Assembly (NCBI GenBank): GCA_015061605.1
Contig: SUWH01000004.1
Span: 1-64,000, forward strand
Length of the DNA stretch: 64,000 bases
DNA from: Lentisphaerota bacterium
Lineage (GTDB): Bacteria > Verrucomicrobiota > Lentisphaeria > Victivallales > Victivallaceae
Reading direction: 5' to 3'
The translations under genes and the position numbers were made by a program. The notes beneath the pieces were generated by a model. The model saw only the letters and a program-made list of their open reading frames with translations. It searched no databases and was not told where the DNA came from. Positions 11,667 through 46,044 of this stretch are shown one piece after another (the stretch's first letter is position 1; every line of letters begins with the position of its first letter).

Positions 11667-12191
11667 ATGAACGACATCCAAAGCCAGATCAACACCATTT
11701 TCCGTATGACTAAAGGCATGACCATTTTCAGGGCGGTCGTCATGCTGATCATCGGTATCGCCATGCTTTTTGCCCCGCTTCAGACATTGTGGTGGATGAC
11801 CATCGTCATCGGCGCGATCGTCATGGTGGACGGCATCGCGCTGTTAAGCAGCGCTCTGCAAAGCGATGATGAATTACGTAATGTTATGGTAGTAAATGCG
11901 ATACTGCTGATCATACTTGGGATATTCTCCCTTTCGGCACCGCTGATGATGGATATGATCTGGGTGATGCTGCTGGGCATCTGGCAGCTGCTCGCCGGAT
12001 TGCAGTATCTCTTTTTGCAGAAAAAATCCCGTCACACATTGTTTACGCTGACCAACGGAGTTATTTCGGTATTGGCTGGATTGTTCTTTCTGTTCCTGCC
12101 TTTCGGCGGATTGCTTGCGGCGACCTGGCTGATCGCGATCATCCTCATCGCCAGCAGCGTGATGAACTTCTTCACCGCCTTTAAACTGTAA
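11667..12191 (+). CDS. HdeD/DUF308 family membrane protein
   Basis: The start at 11667 has AGAGGAG eight bases upstream and gives 174 residues. The protein is almost entirely membrane: about six hydrophobic helices arranged in pairs (for example AVVMLIIGIAMLFAPLQTLW, then an AILLIILGIFSL segment). Short charged loops and the W-rich helix ends match the DUF308/HdeD family, known in Escherichia coli for acid-stress association, although function is not settled. It is monocistronic: an intrinsic terminator precedes it, and the long palindrome 12201-12252 follows nine bases after the stop. Confidence 0.8.
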   Translation: MNDIQSQINTIFRMTKGMTIFRAVVMLIIGIAMLFAPLQTLWWMTIVIGAIVMVDGIALLSSALQSDDELRNVMVVNAILLIILGIFSLSAPLMMDMIWVMLLGIWQLLAGLQYLFLQKKSRHTLFTLTNGVISVLAGLFFLFLPFGGLLAATWLIAIILIASSVMNFFTAFKL

Positions 12192-12200
12192 AAAATCTTT

Positions 12201-12252
12201 GGGGGAAGGGGAAAAACTTTTTTCACGTGAAAAAAGTTTTTCCCCTTCCCCC
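12201..12252 (+). terminator. Gene-end palindrome, copy 1 (52 bp perfect inverted repeat)
   Basis: The arm GGGGGAAGGGGAAAAACTTT continues into a CACGTG centre and then returns exactly, giving 26-base arms. It starts nine bases after the HdeD-like stop. A C-rich stretch and a TTTTTAAAAAAGCG tail follow. Copies 2 and 3 (27485-27536, 59707-59760) share both sequence and tail. It may terminate transcription or be a mobile hairpin repeat. Confidence 0.85.
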
Positions 12253-12338
12253 AAACCCCCTTCCCCTTTTTAAAAAAGCGAGATAATTTGCCGCTCCGTT
12301 GTCGCGGCGACGACCGCAAGGCCAGCGGGAGCAAAAAA

Positions 12339-39695: not shown

Positions 39696-42077
39696 TTATG
39701 CTTCGGAGGAGCTTTTTTCCTCTTTCTTTTCGTCAGCGTCCAATGCTTCAAGTTCAGCTTTGTCAGCCAGTGACATATTGCCTTCGACCTGACCATTGTC
39801 GAGATAGTTGATCTTTCTCGTCTTCAAGTCGCGGAAAAGCTGGATCATATCGCGCACCGAACCGATACCGAACCAGAAAGTAACGATCACGGTAACTGCC
39901 CCCGGAACCAGCAGACTGGTAACAAGGAAGTATCCGCTCCACCAGGAAATCGGCCATCTCTGGAACAAATTCCAGATCACGATGATCACAAACGCTCCGA
40001 GGAAACGGTAGATGATCGAATAGACAAAGAGTGAACGGGCTATGACCCGATCCCAGAAAGTATATTCCGGGGTGATACCGATAAGTTTGTTGCAGACAGT
40101 TTTGATGTTCCAGACCGTCTTTTCCTGATTGTGCTTATCGAGGTTGTATTTACCGCGATGGAGCATGCGGTCAAGGTTGAACGGCTCTTTACAGGTCAGC
40201 TTGGAAACCACGATGTAGACCACAAACGAAGTCAATGTGGCAATAAGATTGAATTCATACGCATTGATAAAGCACTTATAAGGATTGACTCTCCAGACAA
40301 CGATCGGTTCAAAGGGAGCGGAAATCGCATGAACAACCGCAGAAAAACCATTCAACCAGCCCATGTCGCGGAGGAAACCGTACAACTCTGTCCAATTCTG
40401 CTTCATTCCGATATAAGCAAGTGCCATACCGCAACTGGTGAGCAGACTTGTCCAGGCGCCCTTGGTAGTACCGAAACGGGTGTAAAGACCAAGCATCACC
40501 ATTGAACCTGCGCCAATCCACATGGTGGTCATCGTACTCATAAAGAGGTTGATATAGTCCAACTGGCTCATCATCGTTGAACCGACATAGAAACAGATAC
40601 CGACCGTAATTGCCACCGCACGCACGACCCAGAGATGCTGGATCGGAGTGAGCGGCTTCTTGATAAACGGCATCACAACGTCCTGGGTGATGGTCAGCGA
40701 TGCCGAGAAAATACGGGTATCGTCAGTGGAGATCATCGCCATGATCATCAGCAGACAGAAGAGTCCGCTCAAACCCGGCGGCAGCATGTGACGGACACCT
40801 ACCGCCGTCATCATCTGATGATAGAGCGTGCGGAACTGCTGATACATACCGGCATTGACTTCCGGAGTATCAACATCATTGTTGTCGATAGCCTGCTTGA
40901 CTTCGGCAAGATAAATTGTATCAAGATTCGCCTCTTCAGAAAGCTGTTTATCAACTCCTACGTTATGGATGATCGGAGCTTTGCGGTGCATTGCATCAAC
41001 AATCTTTTTACGCAATGTCTGGTGTTTTTCAGCATGGAAAAGTCCTTCGGCAACGCGTTCACTGATGGTGTCGCGCACCTCTTTGGCCTGTTTGGCAAAA
41101 TCTTTGTGGTTGAAGTAGGCGATCAATGAAACTGCGATAAGAATGTACAAAACACTCATCAAACTGCCGCGGTAAGTACCGAGCAGAGCAGCCATTTTCT
41201 GTTCATGCGGGCTCTTGGCACTGGTGGAGTTACCGGCACCGATCCACGAGCCGCGGTTGATGACGGTAGTAATGAGCGTCACACCGACAAAGAACAAATT
41301 GAAGTCACGCAGTTCAGATATATCGTACGGATTGAGGAAGCTCTGATTGGCAACGCGGTCGGTAAGCACCGGAACGATCTGGTCGCTCCACGAAAATTTG
41401 TAAAGCATGAAACCGACAAACACCGCCATGATGGGATAGCAGAACATACCCTGAATACTGTCAGTGATAACCAGCGCGAGAGTACCGCCCATGCAGATAA
41501 TACCGATAGCAACCGTCAAACAGCAGAGAATAAGCACGTTGAAAGTCGGGATCTCAACTCCCCAAACCGTAAAATGCTGCGGCAGACCGAAGTAGTAGAT
41601 AAAGAAACGTCCGGCAATAGCGGGCATGATCATGTTGGCAAGCACTTCGGAAGTTGAACGCAATGCACTCGCAAAAATACGCAGTTTGCGGCTGTAACGC
41701 ATTTCAATATACTGTCCGAAACTCATCGCCTTGGTTTCGCGGAAACGGTAGGTCACAAATCCGGTCAAACTCAACACCACGCCCAGCGGCATGGTCAAAT
41801 TCTGCCAGAAGGTCAACGCAAAACCGGTTCGGTAATGCACTTCGACGAATGCCACCAATCCCATGATCGACAAACCGTTGGCGATGTCCGCGATACTGAT
41901 CAAATACCGGCCGCACAAACGACCCGCCGACAGAAAGTCGGAAACCTGTACCACATAACGGCGGGAACGGTATCCCATGTACAGAACAAACGACACCGGA
42001 AGAATGATTATCAGCCAGTCCAGCGGACTGACGAAAAACCAGTCATCCTTTACAAACCATTGAAAAAAAGCACCCAT
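39696..42077 (-). CDS. Sodium:solute symporter (SSS family), copy 1
   Basis: The 793-residue membrane protein belongs to the SSS/SLC5 family. It has about 13 or more helices, the early segment DFLSAGRLCGRYLISIADIA typical of the first core helices, and the GQYIEMRYSRKLRIFASALR stretch before helix 5. A large insertion (about residues 330-420, with many charged residues) and a C-terminal extension of about 150 residues make it longer than the usual 450-600. The C-terminal tail is acidic. AGGAGG precedes the ATG. It has its own promoter (42141-42169) and terminator. Location after the third module suggests sugar or sugar-acid uptake. Confidence 0.9.
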   Translation of the reverse strand: MGAFFQWFVKDDWFFVSPLDWLIIILPVSFVLYMGYRSRRYVVQVSDFLSAGRLCGRYLISIADIANGLSIMGLVAFVEVHYRTGFALTFWQNLTMPLGVVLSLTGFVTYRFRETKAMSFGQYIEMRYSRKLRIFASALRSTSEVLANMIMPAIAGRFFIYYFGLPQHFTVWGVEIPTFNVLILCCLTVAIGIICMGGTLALVITDSIQGMFCYPIMAVFVGFMLYKFSWSDQIVPVLTDRVANQSFLNPYDISELRDFNLFFVGVTLITTVINRGSWIGAGNSTSAKSPHEQKMAALLGTYRGSLMSVLYILIAVSLIAYFNHKDFAKQAKEVRDTISERVAEGLFHAEKHQTLRKKIVDAMHRKAPIIHNVGVDKQLSEEANLDTIYLAEVKQAIDNNDVDTPEVNAGMYQQFRTLYHQMMTAVGVRHMLPPGLSGLFCLLMIMAMISTDDTRIFSASLTITQDVVMPFIKKPLTPIQHLWVVRAVAITVGICFYVGSTMMSQLDYINLFMSTMTTMWIGAGSMVMLGLYTRFGTTKGAWTSLLTSCGMALAYIGMKQNWTELYGFLRDMGWLNGFSAVVHAISAPFEPIVVWRVNPYKCFINAYEFNLIATLTSFVVYIVVSKLTCKEPFNLDRMLHRGKYNLDKHNQEKTVWNIKTVCNKLIGITPEYTFWDRVIARSLFVYSIIYRFLGAFVIIVIWNLFQRWPISWWSGYFLVTSLLVPGAVTVIVTFWFGIGSVRDMIQLFRDLKTRKINYLDNGQVEGNMSLADKAELEALDADEKKEEKSSSEA

Positions 42078-42261: not shown

Positions 42262-44634
42262 TTATCCTTCATCCTCTTCCGAGAGTGCCGGAGTATCCAA
42301 CGCCTCAAGTTCAGCTTTGTCCGCCAGTGACATATTGCCTTCGACCTGACCATTGTCGAGGAAGTTGATCTTTCTCGTTTTGAGATCACGGAAGAGTTGA
42401 CGCATATCAATAACTGAACCGATACCGAACCAGAACGCAACGATCACGGTGATCGCCCCCGGCACCAGCAAGCTGGTAACAAGGAAGTATCCGCTCCACC
42501 ATTCCAGAGGCCACTTCTGGAAGATGTTCCAAATCACGATGATCACAAACGTACCGAGGAAGCGGTAGATGATCGAGTAGACAAAGATGGAATAGGCAAC
42601 CACGCGATCCCAGAAGGTGTATTCGGGAGTAACGCCGATGAGTTTGCCCAGAACCGTCTTCAAAGTCCAGGCGCTCTTTTCCTGATTGTGCTTATCGAGA
42701 TTGTATTTGCCGCGATGGAGCATGCGATCAAGGTTGAACGGCTCTTTACAGGTGAGTTTGGAAACCACCAGATAAATGACCAGTGAAGTCAATGTGGCAA
42801 TAAGATTGAATTCATACGCATTGACAAAGCATTTGTAGGGATTGACTCTCCAGACGATGATCGGTTCAAAGGGTTTGGAAAATCCCTGAATGACCGCAGT
42901 AAATCCTTCCAGCCAGCCCATGTTGTTCAGGAAAGCATAGAAGTCGGTCCAATACTGCTTCATCCCGATATATCCCAGCGCCATGCAGCAGCCGGTAAGC
43001 AAGCTTGACCACGCTCCTGCAGTCGTACCGAACCGGGTGTAAAGTCCGAGCATCACCATGGCACCGGCTCCCACCCACATGGTGGTCATGGTACTGACAA
43101 ACAAATTGATATAGTCCAGCTGGCTCATCAATGTCGAACCGAAGTAGAAAACCACACCGACTCCGATGGCAACCGCACGAATGACCCACATATGCTGTTC
43201 CGGAGTGAGCGGCTTTTTGATGAACGGCATCACCACGTCCTGTGTGATGGTCAGCGCCGCCGAGAAAATACGGGTATCGTCGGTGGAGATCATCGCCATG
43301 ATCATCAGCAGACAGAAAAGTCCGCTCAACCCCGGCGGCAGCATGTGACGCATACCGACGGCAGTCATCATCTGATGATAGAGCGTGCGGAACTGCTGAT
43401 ACATGCCGGCATTGACTTCCGGAGTATCAAGGGTGTTGTTATCAATGGCTGATTTTACTTCAGCAAGATAGACGGTATCGAGGTTCGCTTCTTCAGAGAG
43501 CGGTTTTTCAACTCCGACAGTATGTATGATCGGAGCTTTCTGATGCATGGCATCAACAACTTTTTTGCGCAACTCCTGATGCTTTTCGGCATGGAAAAGA
43601 CCATCAGCGACCCGTTCACTGATGGTATCACGCACCTCTTTTGCCTGTTTGGCAAAGTCTTTGTGGTTGAAGTAGGCGATAAGCGCGACCGCGATCAGGA
43701 TGTAGAAAATACTGGTCAGACTGCCGCGGTAAGTTCCCAGAAGTGAAGCCATTTTCTGTTCGTGCGGACTCTTGGCACTGGTTGAGTTGCCCGCCCCCGT
43801 CCAAGCTCCGCGGTTTACTACCGTGGTGATAAGTGTAACACCGACAAAGAACAAATTGAAGTCGCGCAGTTCAGAAATATCATAAGGATCAAGGAAGCTC
43901 TGATTGGCGACGCGATCGGTCAACACCGGCACGATCTGGTCGTTCCACGAAAATTTGTAAAGCATGAAACCTACAAAGATCGCCATAATGGGATAACAGA
44001 ACATGCCCTGGATACTGTCGGTAATGACCAGCGCCAGCGTACCGCCCATGCAGATGATGCCGATCGCCATGGTCAGACAGAGAATGATCAGCGCGTTAAA
44101 GGTCGGGAACTCAATACCGCAAATGGTGAAATACTGCGGCAGACCGAAATAATAAATAAAGAAACGTCCGGCAACCGCAGGCATGATCATATTGGCAAGC
44201 ACTTCAGAGGTGGAGCGCAAGGCACTGGCAAAGATGCGCAGTTTGCGGCTGTAACGCATTTCGATGTACTGCCCGAAGCTCATCGCCTTGGTTTCGCGGA
44301 AACGGTAGGTCACAAAACCGGTCAAGCTCAACACCACCCCCAGCGGCATGGTAAGATTCTGCCAGAATGTCAGCGCAAAACCGGTACGGTAATGCACTTC
44401 AACGTAGGCAACCAACCCGATGATCGACAAACCGTTGGCAATGTCGGCGACACTGATAAGATACCGTCCGCACAACCGCCCCGCCGATAAAAAGTCGGAA
44501 ACCTGTACCACATAACGCCGGGAATACCATCCCATAAAAAGTACAAATGCGACCGGAATTAAAATAATCATCCAGTCCAGTGGACTCACAAAAAACCAGT
44601 CATCTTTTACCAACCATTGAAAAAACGAAGCCAT
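42262..44634 (-). CDS. Sodium:solute symporter (SSS family), copy 2
   Basis: The 790-residue protein is a close paralogue of copy 1: long blocks are identical, for example the segment around GFVTYRFRETKAMSFGQYIE, and differences cluster in helix interiors and in the charged insert. The same unusual length, insert and C-terminal tail are kept. Independent terminator and AT-rich upstream region (44635-44760) indicate a separate transcript, so the pair may serve different sugars or growth states. GGAGG lies nine bases before the ATG. The duplication looks fairly recent; the fragment at 44799-45058 is a third member. Confidence 0.9.
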   Translation of the reverse strand: MASFFQWLVKDDWFFVSPLDWMIILIPVAFVLFMGWYSRRYVVQVSDFLSAGRLCGRYLISVADIANGLSIIGLVAYVEVHYRTGFALTFWQNLTMPLGVVLSLTGFVTYRFRETKAMSFGQYIEMRYSRKLRIFASALRSTSEVLANMIMPAVAGRFFIYYFGLPQYFTICGIEFPTFNALIILCLTMAIGIICMGGTLALVITDSIQGMFCYPIMAIFVGFMLYKFSWNDQIVPVLTDRVANQSFLDPYDISELRDFNLFFVGVTLITTVVNRGAWTGAGNSTSAKSPHEQKMASLLGTYRGSLTSIFYILIAVALIAYFNHKDFAKQAKEVRDTISERVADGLFHAEKHQELRKKVVDAMHQKAPIIHTVGVEKPLSEEANLDTVYLAEVKSAIDNNTLDTPEVNAGMYQQFRTLYHQMMTAVGMRHMLPPGLSGLFCLLMIMAMISTDDTRIFSAALTITQDVVMPFIKKPLTPEQHMWVIRAVAIGVGVVFYFGSTLMSQLDYINLFVSTMTTMWVGAGAMVMLGLYTRFGTTAGAWSSLLTGCCMALGYIGMKQYWTDFYAFLNNMGWLEGFTAVIQGFSKPFEPIIVWRVNPYKCFVNAYEFNLIATLTSLVIYLVVSKLTCKEPFNLDRMLHRGKYNLDKHNQEKSAWTLKTVLGKLIGVTPEYTFWDRVVAYSIFVYSIIYRFLGTFVIIVIWNIFQKWPLEWWSGYFLVTSLLVPGAITVIVAFWFGIGSVIDMRQLFRDLKTRKINFLDNGQVEGNMSLADKAELEALDTPALSEEDEG

Positions 44635-44798: not shown

Positions 44799-45058
44799 TC
44801 AATATTCTGAATTACGCTTCAGAACCTTCTTCAAAGTCCAGGCGCTCTTGGCTTGATTGAAGTTTTCCAGATTGTACTTACCGCGATGGAACACAACGCC
44901 ATGCCGCAACTGGTAAGCAAACTCGCCCACGCGCCTTTGGTCGTACCGAAACGGGTGTAAAGTCCGAGCATGATCATCGAACCGGCACCGACCCACATCG
45001 CTGTCATGGTACTGACGAACAAGTTGATGTAGTCCAACTGGCTCATCATCGTTGAGCC
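44799..45058 (-). pseudogene. Third SSS symporter copy, decayed
   Basis: Two pieces in different frames abut. Positions 45058-44894 encode MMSQLDYINLFVSTMTAMWV through LLTSCGMAL; positions 44891-44802 encode HRGKYNLENFNQAKSAWTLK. In the intact copies these are about 86 residues apart, so roughly 260 bases were deleted at the junction. The first 500 residues and the tail are missing; tandem repeats replace the upstream part. Its terminator is intact. Confidence 0.85.
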
Positions 45059-45073
45059 GGACGCGCCGGACAT

Positions 45074-45107
45074 GTCGGACTGGTCGGACTGGTCGGACTG
45101 GTCGGAC
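45074..45107 (+). repeat. 9-bp tandem repeat
   Basis: GTCGGACTG is repeated three times and ends with a fourth GTCGGAC. It borders the decayed symporter. Confidence 0.85.
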
Positions 45108-45160
45108 GCGCGGCAAAACAGACCGTGCAGCATCCGCAGACATAAAGACAATGGGCGCCC

Positions 45161-45212
45161 TGTTGTCCGTTATAGTCCGTTATAGTCCGTTATAGTCCGT
45201 TAATGTCCGTTA
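45161..45212 (+). repeat. 10-bp tandem repeat
   Basis: GTCCGTTATA recurs about four and a half times with degenerate ends (TGTTGTCCGT first, TAATGTCCGT last). Confidence 0.85.
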
Positions 45213-45282
45213 GACAACATCGCTCCATGAGGCACTCCGCCCGTGCGCCAGCCCTACATGCAGCAAGGCGCGCTCCGTAACA

Positions 45283-45343
45283 ACCGCCGTCAGGCGGAAC
45301 CAAACACTACCTTGCCTGTCGTGCCGGAGGCGCGACAAAAGGC
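45283..45343 (+). repeat. Repeat A, copy 3
   Basis: It matches copies 1 and 2 except that the second hairpin's 3' arm is GGCGCGACA; the changed base still pairs as G-U. The shared tail runs to about 45390. Confidence 0.85.
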
Positions 45344-45528
45344 ACAACAGCCAGCAGCCCGGAATCAGGAGCGATATCGCACCGCCGGGCGGCGGCAAAC
45401 GTGCCGCTGCGAGGTGTCGCGCCCTTCCCGTTGGTCGGGCTTGATCGGGTTGCTTCGCAACAACCGCCGGAATCAATTACTGCACGTGACTGGAGCGGCG
45501 ACTACCGCAAGGCCCGCCCCCAAAAAAT

Positions 45529-45589
45529 ACCGCCGTCAGGCGGAACAAAACACTACCTTGCCTGTCGTGCCGGAGGCGCGACAAAAGGC
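45529..45589 (+). repeat. Repeat A, copy 4
   Basis: Same as copy 3 including the G-U change, and followed by the same tail to about 45630. Confidence 0.85.
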
Positions 45590-45742
45590 ACAACAGCCAG
45601 CAGCCCGGAGTCAGGAGCGATATCGCACCGCCGGGCGGGTTTTGCAAGCGAGAAGCGAGGGGAGTGTACTCCGGTACTCGACCCGAGCGGCGAGCGCAGC
45701 AAGGCGCGCTCCGGCAAAGCGAGATCGCTCCGTGAACACAAA

Positions 45743-45768
45743 AAAATGGAGCCAATTATCGGAATCGA
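45743..45768 (-). repeat. Duplicated 3' end of tRNA-Thr (att-like)
   Basis: Twenty-six bases (plus strand: AAAATGGAGCCAATTATC then GGAATCGA) repeat exactly at 45965-45990, where they form the last 22 bases of tRNA-Thr plus four flanking bases. The copies are 222 bases apart. Confidence 0.85.
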
Positions 45769-45835
45769 CAAGACGGACGTAGTCCGGCGCAGAGCCTGAA
45801 CGGAGCAACGCGGAGTGAAGGCAACCGACAACCAA

Positions 45836-45950
45836 GTGAGAATTGCGTTATTGGCGGCACGCCAATGAGCAAAGCGATGATACAAAACAAAAACAGCGGC
45901 AAAACATCGTTTTGCAAGATGTTTTTGGAGTGTATCAAAGCAATTCTCAC
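45836..45950 (+). other. 115-bp multibranch inverted-repeat element, candidate structured RNA or MITE
   Basis: GTGAGAATTGC (45836-45846) pairs with GCAATTCTCAC (45940-45950). Inside are ATTGGCG-GCA-CGCCAAT (45850-45866) and TGATAC (45878-45883) with GTATCA (45932-45937), the latter enclosing AAAACATC (45901-45908) with GATGTTTT (45918-45925). No promoter or reading frame is evident. It lies between the two tRNA-Thr 3' ends. Confidence 0.55.
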
Positions 45951-45968
45951 GAATTTTGACAAAGAAAA

Positions 45969-46044
45969 TGGAGCCAATTATCGGAATCGAACCGATGACC
46001 TATTCATTACGAGTGAATTGCTCTACCGACTGAGCTAAATTGGC
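45969..46044 (-). tRNA. tRNA-Thr (anticodon CGT)
   Basis: A complete 76-base cloverleaf on the minus strand: acceptor GCCAATT/AATTGGC, D stem GCTC/GAGC, anticodon stem ATTCA/TGAAT with loop CTCGTAA, T stem ATCGG/CCGAT with loop TTCGATT, and an encoded CCA end. The CGT anticodon reads ACG. Confidence 0.95.

Follow-up and report, generated by a model that had tools for sequence, protein, structure and literature searches.

Directly 3' of an intact tRNA-Thr(CGT) gene, the window (the whole stretch analysed, 64,000 nucleotides of contig SUWH01000004.1 in the Lentisphaerota assembly GCA_015061605.1) carries a repeat unit of 222 bp, in which a folded core is followed by a T-arm split by a hairpin insert and by an exact copy of the 3' end of the tRNA. 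Units of the same build stand behind at least 13 tRNA isoacceptors within the same bacterial family, and in each the copy tracks the local tRNA. Their anatomy is that of the rtT repeats, which have been known at the tyrT locus of E. coli for decades; what is already known is thus the layout in E. coli, and what is new is a family in gut Lentisphaerae that has that layout but no detectable homology to rtT. We propose that the units, each about 220 bp long, are non-autonomous mobile DNA cassettes whose integration into the T-loop of tRNA genes would proceed by site-specific recombination, and we give this reading a probability of about one half. A second, much larger family with the rtT layout, present at more than 12 tRNA genes, marks the duplication of tRNA 3' ends around a split T-arm as a recurring process, and the comparative dataset assembled here (boundaries, empty sites, compensatory changes and a candidate recombinase) makes its mechanism testable. 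If mobile, the units would be among the smallest cassettes that target a universal gene part, and they might offer a tool for insertion at tRNA sites.

The folded core and the repeat unit in the window

The sequence-only reading of this DNA had singled out positions 45836-45950 as a multibranched inverted-repeat element inside a tRNA duplication, had judged it too ordered for spacer DNA, and had proposed that its folding energy be compared with that of shuffled sequence and that a covariance model built from it be searched against Lentisphaerota genomes. The coordinates proved correct and the 11-pair outer stem is present. When folded as RNA, the plus strand reached -49.1 kcal/mol (z -8.1) and the minus strand -43.2 kcal/mol (z -7.2), and on either strand none of 200 shuffles folded as well; these values, together with the homologues found at the equivalent position in many genomes, bear out the judgement about spacer DNA. 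The fold is a three-way junction in which the closing stem leads to a short hairpin and to a long arm (Table 1). Two details of the earlier description changed on refolding: the hairpin counted as 7 pairs has 9, and the pairing of GCAAAAC with GTTTTGC, taken for an alternative hairpin, is in fact the tip of the same long arm. The informative strand is the minus strand, as for the tRNA, since a covariance model of 15 Thr/Gly-type cores (R1) scored 120 bits there and 23 bits on the plus strand.

The 115 bp originally delimited are therefore a real folded core, but the feature is wider and includes the split T-arm and the copy of the tRNA 3' end. The tRNA duplication around the fold was also correctly seen: the 22-nt 3' end of tRNA-Thr(CGT), TCGATTCCGATAATTGGCTCCA, occurs exactly twice in the window, both times on the minus strand, against a chance expectation of 0.00. 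The open reading frames listed across the unit are short overlapping frames only.

Table 1. Positions of the tRNA gene, the repeat unit and its parts in the window. Arms and strands of the unit are named as read on the tRNA strand unless stated otherwise.
Feature	Position	Strand	Basis
tRNA-Thr(CGT), intact, CCA encoded; putative insertion target	45969..46044	-	ARAGORN; Rfam tRNA 74.4 bits
tRNA-Thr 3' end, T55 (T-loop) to A76; proximal copy of the 22-nt repeat	45969..45990	-	exact repeat
Whole repeat unit, 222 bp: T-rich spacer, core, split T-arm, tRNA 3'-end copy	45747..45968	-	boundaries from relatives; direct-repeat spacing 222
T-rich spacer straight after CCA	45951..45968	-	sequence; equivalent position in relatives
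Structured core, three-way junction	45836..45950	-	folding z; R1 120 bits; covariation in relatives
Closing stem, 11 pairs	45836-45846 with 45940-45950	+ coordinates	RNA folding
Closing stem, 5' arm GTGAGAATTGC	45940..45950	-	fold; conserved in alignment A1
Closing stem, 3' arm GCAATTCTCAC	45836..45846	-	fold; conserved in alignment A1
Short hairpin TTATTGGCG / CGCCAATGA (as on the + strand)	45848..45868	-	fold; 9 pairs, 45848-45856 with 45860-45868
Long arm, nested 7 + 8 + 7 pairs	45878..45937	-	fold; compensatory changes in homologous arm (helices 3-5)
Long-arm pairs	45878-45884 with 45931-45937; 45888-45895 with 45920-45927; 45899-45905 with 45909-45915	+ coordinates	fold
GTCGG, 5' strand of split T-arm, matches/pairs with local T-stem	45825..45829	-	5/5 pairs with CCGAT
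Hairpin insert in T-loop of split T-arm (GCC...CTTG)	45769..45822	-	sequence and relatives
Distal copy of tRNA 3' end (T55-A76), 22/22 identical	45747..45768	-	exact repeat; extent as in relatives

Anatomy of the units across tRNA genes

Read on the strand of the tRNA, the units follow a common order: the CCA end, usually a T-rich spacer, the structured core and a tail. The tail is a dismantled T-arm, in which a 5' strand that matches the local T-stem and continues with TT is followed by a hairpin insert starting with GCC and then by TCGANTCC, with the 3' strand of the T-stem, the 3' strand of the acceptor stem and CCA. The stretch identical to the tRNA covers exactly the 22 nt from T55 to A76 in 45 of the 59 scored units, which belong to many isoacceptors, and the others are mostly broken by single insertions, deletions or substitutions. 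The split arm is likewise fitted to the tRNA that it follows: over 19 tRNA groups its 5' strand paired with its own T-stem at 3.47 of 4 positions, compared with 2.83 (SD 0.13) when the tRNAs were shuffled, and none of 10,000 shuffles gave a value as high. In genome G011, one copy has mutated from CCGGT to CCGCT, a change that improves the pairing of the split arm. The host sequence that follows the Arg-CCG array of G012 has no T tract, which indicates that the T tract belongs to the element.

Some loci depart from this scheme. In the tRNA-Tyr unit of G012 (L152), the hairpin insert of the T-loop appears inverted, GG[TTCGAC...GGCAA]TCC, as though the palindromic TTCGAA of the T-loop permitted both orientations. 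A repeat of about 35 bp (CTTGTCACGGCGTAATCTGC...GCCGGAT, and variants) is inserted in the tRNA-end copies or the tail at L116, L120 and L101. A second type of tRNA-end repeat, CCATTTTTTTGC...GCAAAAAAATGG followed by AACGAAG.CGCAAG.CTTCACTTCAC, was found behind His, Phe, Pro and Ser tRNAs (L101, L106, L107, L148 and L153). The idea that the short hairpin, by its ATTGGC/GCCAAT arms, acts as a guide to the acceptor stem of tRNA-Thr was dropped; the units of G005 and those behind tRNA-Gly do not keep the match.

Homologues and distribution

The genome of the window contains one close copy of the unit, and matches were found in 18 of 149 related genomes, mostly of the same genus, often as two or three units in tandem at 210-225 bp; overall, one to four units occupy a site. 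In these relatives each element follows a tRNA gene immediately, in the orientation of that gene, and complete units close with a duplicate of the gene's 3' end. A covariance search, as had been proposed, was run with R1 and detected units in 24 of 78 genomes from the family, the tRNAs concerned now including Glu, Gln, Gly, Lys, Leu and Met; this count, like the others given here, is a lower bound, the genomes being metagenome-assembled (MAGs) with many contigs and arrays being prone to break assemblies. Searches with the tail additionally revealed units behind Cys, Pro, Ser and Arg tRNAs, and the hosts of 3' units are tRNA-Thr, Gly, Glu (CTC, TTC), Gln, Lys, Leu, Arg (CCG, TCT), Pro (TGG, GGG), Ser, Asp, Cys, Tyr and Met. 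The sequences 3' of the tRNA genes were surveyed in fetched regions, for 39 tRNAs in the genome of the window and 44 in G012. Units stood behind roughly a quarter of the tRNAs in each; the two sets differ in part, an Asp unit being present only in the former and a Pro-TGG unit only in the latter.

Independent confirmation of homology came from a model built solely from non-Thr units (R2), which detected the window unit at 45820-45950 with 53 bits (E = 2e-10), although no Thr unit had entered it. The next match in the window, at 12188-12306 on the plus strand, scored 21 bits (E 0.006), and ARAGORN predicts no tRNA gene there. At the R2 loci that were read, a tRNA gene lay upstream on the same strand in all but four, one of which is at a contig start. 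Across 388 genomes of the phylum, R2 found nothing beyond three genera of this family, and the exact tail motif, searched in 84,980 species, occurred in Lentisphaerae MAGs only (11 stretches). Neither the tail nor the core had an exact match in viral contigs, plasmid and phage records gave chance or tRNA matches only, and Rfam yielded no match to the unit at any useful score.

Relation to rtT repeats and to other known systems

We know of no settled origin or function for the rtT repeats. In E. coli (RF00391, rttR) these form tandem units of 175-178 bp directly 3' of a tRNA gene, as here, and each unit ends in the 3' end of its own tRNA, over about 19 nt there and 22 nt here; at the tyrT locus, which served as comparator, three 178-bp units matching Rfam RtT follow tRNA-Tyr. 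In both systems the T-arm is split in the T-loop by several hairpins, with a stem that is specific to the tRNA (AAGGTTCGAC...TAATCCTT for Tyr and GGAGGTTCGAC...TAATCCTC for Pro in E. coli), and in E. coli, too, more than one tRNA is targeted (Tyr and Pro), with a copy number that varies among strains and 1-14 places per genome. The differences lie in the split point, which falls after A58 in E. coli and after T55 here, in the three-way-junction core, which is not apparent in E. coli, and in the number of isoacceptors used, which is far greater here. Moreover, a cmscan of the window unit and seven relatives gave no match to RtT at the gathering cut-off of 45 bits, against 133-138 bits for the E. 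coli control. The units thus have both hallmarks of the RtT layout, namely tandem 3' units that end in the tRNA 3' end and a hairpin-split T-arm matching the local tRNA, while they show no detectable homology to RtT and fall outside RF00391. To call the element one of unknown type, as had been done from the sequence alone, was too strong in view of this shared anatomy. A diverged rtT-like unit lies behind the tRNA-Pro gene proK (loci L168 and L166). It is annotated in another E. coli strain, but the K-12 unit (L168) carries no annotation in NC_000913.3, and the terminator of the tRNA lies within it.

Integrons assemble arrays of short cassettes at one site by means of recombination sites (attC) that work as folded DNA, and the units can be likened to such cassettes, but they are geneless and their target is the T-loop of a tRNA. 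They also resemble the RAYT-mobilised REP/BIME sequences in being short, imperfectly palindromic, intergenic and non-autonomous, but differ from them in their direct repeats of the target and in their strict location at tRNA 3' ends; a REP/RAYT origin was rejected on the absence of a Y1_Tnp transposase match in the genome of the window (88.7% complete), such matches being present in 11 of 34 genomes of the genus. Two further classes were discarded: a MITE with terminal inverted repeats, the 11-bp inverted repeat being internal, 18 bp from the start of the unit and 67 bp before the tRNA copy, and a casposon-like insertion, the unit ends having no terminal inverted repeats.

A precedent for the T-loop as the site of a recombinase is provided by mycobacteriophage Ms6, whose attB is the T-loop of tRNA-Ala, with a core of 26 bp (PMC1762012). 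Elements of the Ms6 type share with the units a duplication from the T-loop to the tRNA 3' end, a restored tRNA and a preserved host flank, and here a candidate recombinase family adjoins tRNAs; the units differ in being geneless and only about 220 bp long, in their folded split T-arm and in their tandem arrangement at many tRNAs. Elements of the tyrosine-recombinase class that target tRNA genes carry their own integrase, for which the 222-bp unit is too short, but the direct repeat that runs from the crossover site to the tRNA 3' end, with the tRNA left intact, is there (45 of the 59 units; ARAGORN calls the tRNA-Thr of the window as intact).

Folded DNA or RNA

The fold has been maintained by changes on both sides of its helices. 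Among 63 distinct aligned cores, paired cells make up 96% of the total and both sides have changed in 26 of 36 pairs, with a covariation of 0.345 compared with 0.127 ± 0.006 after shuffling and at most 0.07 when the partner was slid, although the alignment was fitted to the model and the absolute covariation values lean upwards. Type A cores display a weaker compensatory pattern (11 of 30 pairs). G-T and A-C mispairs are similarly rare: 55 GT (32 of them in one column and 23 elsewhere) and 39 AC were counted in A3, and 33 GT (21 in one column) and 14 AC in A4. By contrast, the stems of the tRNAs at these loci, taken as a control, gave 64 GT and 1 AC. An exception is one base-pair column of A3 that is mostly U-G. 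Since the G-U excess normally left by selection on RNA is lacking, the structure is more likely to be preserved in the form of DNA hairpins, or through template-switch correction, and, as judged from these mispair counts, the core is more likely folded DNA than a selected RNA. The suggestion of a small structured RNA, made in the sequence-only reading, thus finds its compensatory base-pair changes, but not the G-U excess typical of RNA, and is the less supported for it.

Apparent movement of units between tRNA genes

Similarity between cores located at different tRNAs reaches 0.85, while cores at the same tRNA in two species range from 0.53 to 0.82 and the shuffled baseline is 0.41. For instance, the Gly units of G001 are nearer to the Gln units of G020 (0.85) than to the Gly units of G019 (0.54), and the Arg-CCG core of the genome of the window is nearer to its own Glu-TTC core (0.79) than to the Arg-CCG core of G012 (0.57). 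A precise empty site was identified at one tRNA locus: the tRNA-Glu(TTC) gene of G012 (L158) is empty, and its flank is the same as that following the last copy in G021, with three units (L058), and in G008, with one (L189). Together, the empty and filled sites and the core similarities indicate that the units come and go precisely, and they appear to move between tRNA genes. Most tRNAs in unit-bearing genomes have no unit, and the choice of unit-bearing tRNAs varies between related species. The earlier proposal of a non-autonomous mobile element is well supported by the presence of the unit in many genomes, at the same tRNA position and with the tRNA end duplicated.

A candidate recombinase

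Three tyrosine recombinases are encoded in the genome of the window. One of them, a Phage_integrase protein of 442 aa (L226:532-1860, minus strand), lies about 225 bp 3' of tRNA-Arg(ACG), and in about 22 of 30 sampled loci its closer relatives (54-97% identical) are encoded immediately behind a tRNA gene; the adjacent tRNAs are Arg, Leu, Ala, Ser, Val, Glu, Asn and Tyr, representing a dozen or so isoacceptors. In G008, the gene order is tRNA, unit, recombinase. By its gene neighbourhoods, this family of about 442 aa is a putative tRNA-end specialist with a broad choice of tRNA, as the units are, and it is the best candidate for the enzyme acting on them, an unproven lead rather than a result. 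Around its members (L226:532-1860 (-), L225:4532-5857, L227:2216-3550 and others), no second attachment site was evident within 2-3.5 kb.

Proposed mechanism and alternative explanations

In the cassette model, crossover would occur at about T54/T55 of the tRNA gene, the incoming cassette would supply anew the part of the tRNA between T55 and CCA, and the original 3' end, once displaced, would stay behind as the distal copy; tandem arrays would then result from repeated insertion or from unequal crossing-over. The core and the split T-arm would probably act as folded DNA, single-stranded or cruciform, recognised by a recombinase in a manner comparable to attC, and the enzyme would most likely be a host- or helper-encoded tyrosine recombinase working in trans, such as the family described above. 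We infer that the cassettes may still be mobile; in the MAGs examined, no circular form or recent excision was seen. Two points count against the model. A simple integrase brings in the element's own tRNA end, so that a jump to a different tRNA would damage it, and, since both the copies and the T-stems are adapted to each tRNA, an extra step is needed, which could be target duplication or gene conversion. In addition, the recombinase and the units are unevenly matched across genomes: G012 has many units yet no recombinase match at E<=1e-30, while G032 and G024 have the recombinase and no detected units.

The location of the unit directly 3' of the tRNA and on the same strand, the strong fold with its compensatory changes and the mostly U-G column of A3 would also suit a functional small RNA that is transcribed together with the tRNA and cut from its 3' trailer, with tandem copies serving for dosage. 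There is a parallel in E. coli, where the rtT RNA is annotated as processed from the tyrT transcript, and the RtT sRNA was reported to be upregulated in the cold in Thioalkalivibrio (PMC8092127). We nevertheless consider this explanation unlikely, given that there is no overall G-U preference, unlike in the neighbouring tRNAs, that most tRNAs are unit-free and the unit-bearing ones differ between related species, and that cores move from one tRNA to another. Marginally less likely still is that the units are passive repeats, in which tandem duplications of tRNA 3' ends and hairpin-rich intergenic repeats, arising with no dedicated enzyme, were spread by gene conversion, their palindromes being kept by replication template switching. 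Strand-symmetric pairing is the expected outcome of such palindrome correction, array numbers do vary, and the genome is rich in other intergenic repeats, which also insert into units (L116, L120, L101). However, one T55-A76 boundary and one T-loop split recur at more than 12 unrelated tRNA genes, and this argues against passive repeats because chance duplications would not stop at one nucleotide.

The same exact end at A76, that of the mature tRNA, which is kept even at the T-tract-free Arg-CCG flank of G012, could instead point to a target- or tRNA-primed retro-element, whose reverse transcription would join the element to the mature CCA end and duplicate the 22 nt between two nicks. A target-site duplication of this kind would account for the constant match between the copy and its local tRNA, but a boundary at CCA is equally expected of an integrase that must restore the tRNA, and no pattern of 5' truncation was noticed in the units, so that we regard a retro-element as highly improbable. 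As for the cassette model, its most far-reaching version would be a system resembling a miniature integron, in which a tyrosine recombinase would insert geneless cassettes of folded DNA into the T-loop, a universal part, of nearly any tRNA gene, each cassette adopting the local T-stem and 3' end, and to which the rtT repeats of E. coli would belong as an independent or ancient branch; this version is speculative, and we give it about as little credence as the small RNA.

Other repeats near the unit

Beyond the tRNA-end copy, a 110-bp repeat occurs twice with 98% identity (45283-45392 and 45529-45638), and near it are several shorter repeats that recur in the flanks of other tRNAs in the genus. 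Two short tandem repeats, with periods of 9 bp (CGGACTGGT) and 10 bp (GTCCGTTATA), lie at 45058-45102 and 45155-45214 in a decayed gene region. The fragment 44799-45151 on the minus strand resembles part of the two neighbouring transporter-like open reading frames of about 790 aa (39696-42077 and 42262-44634) and is a decayed third copy.
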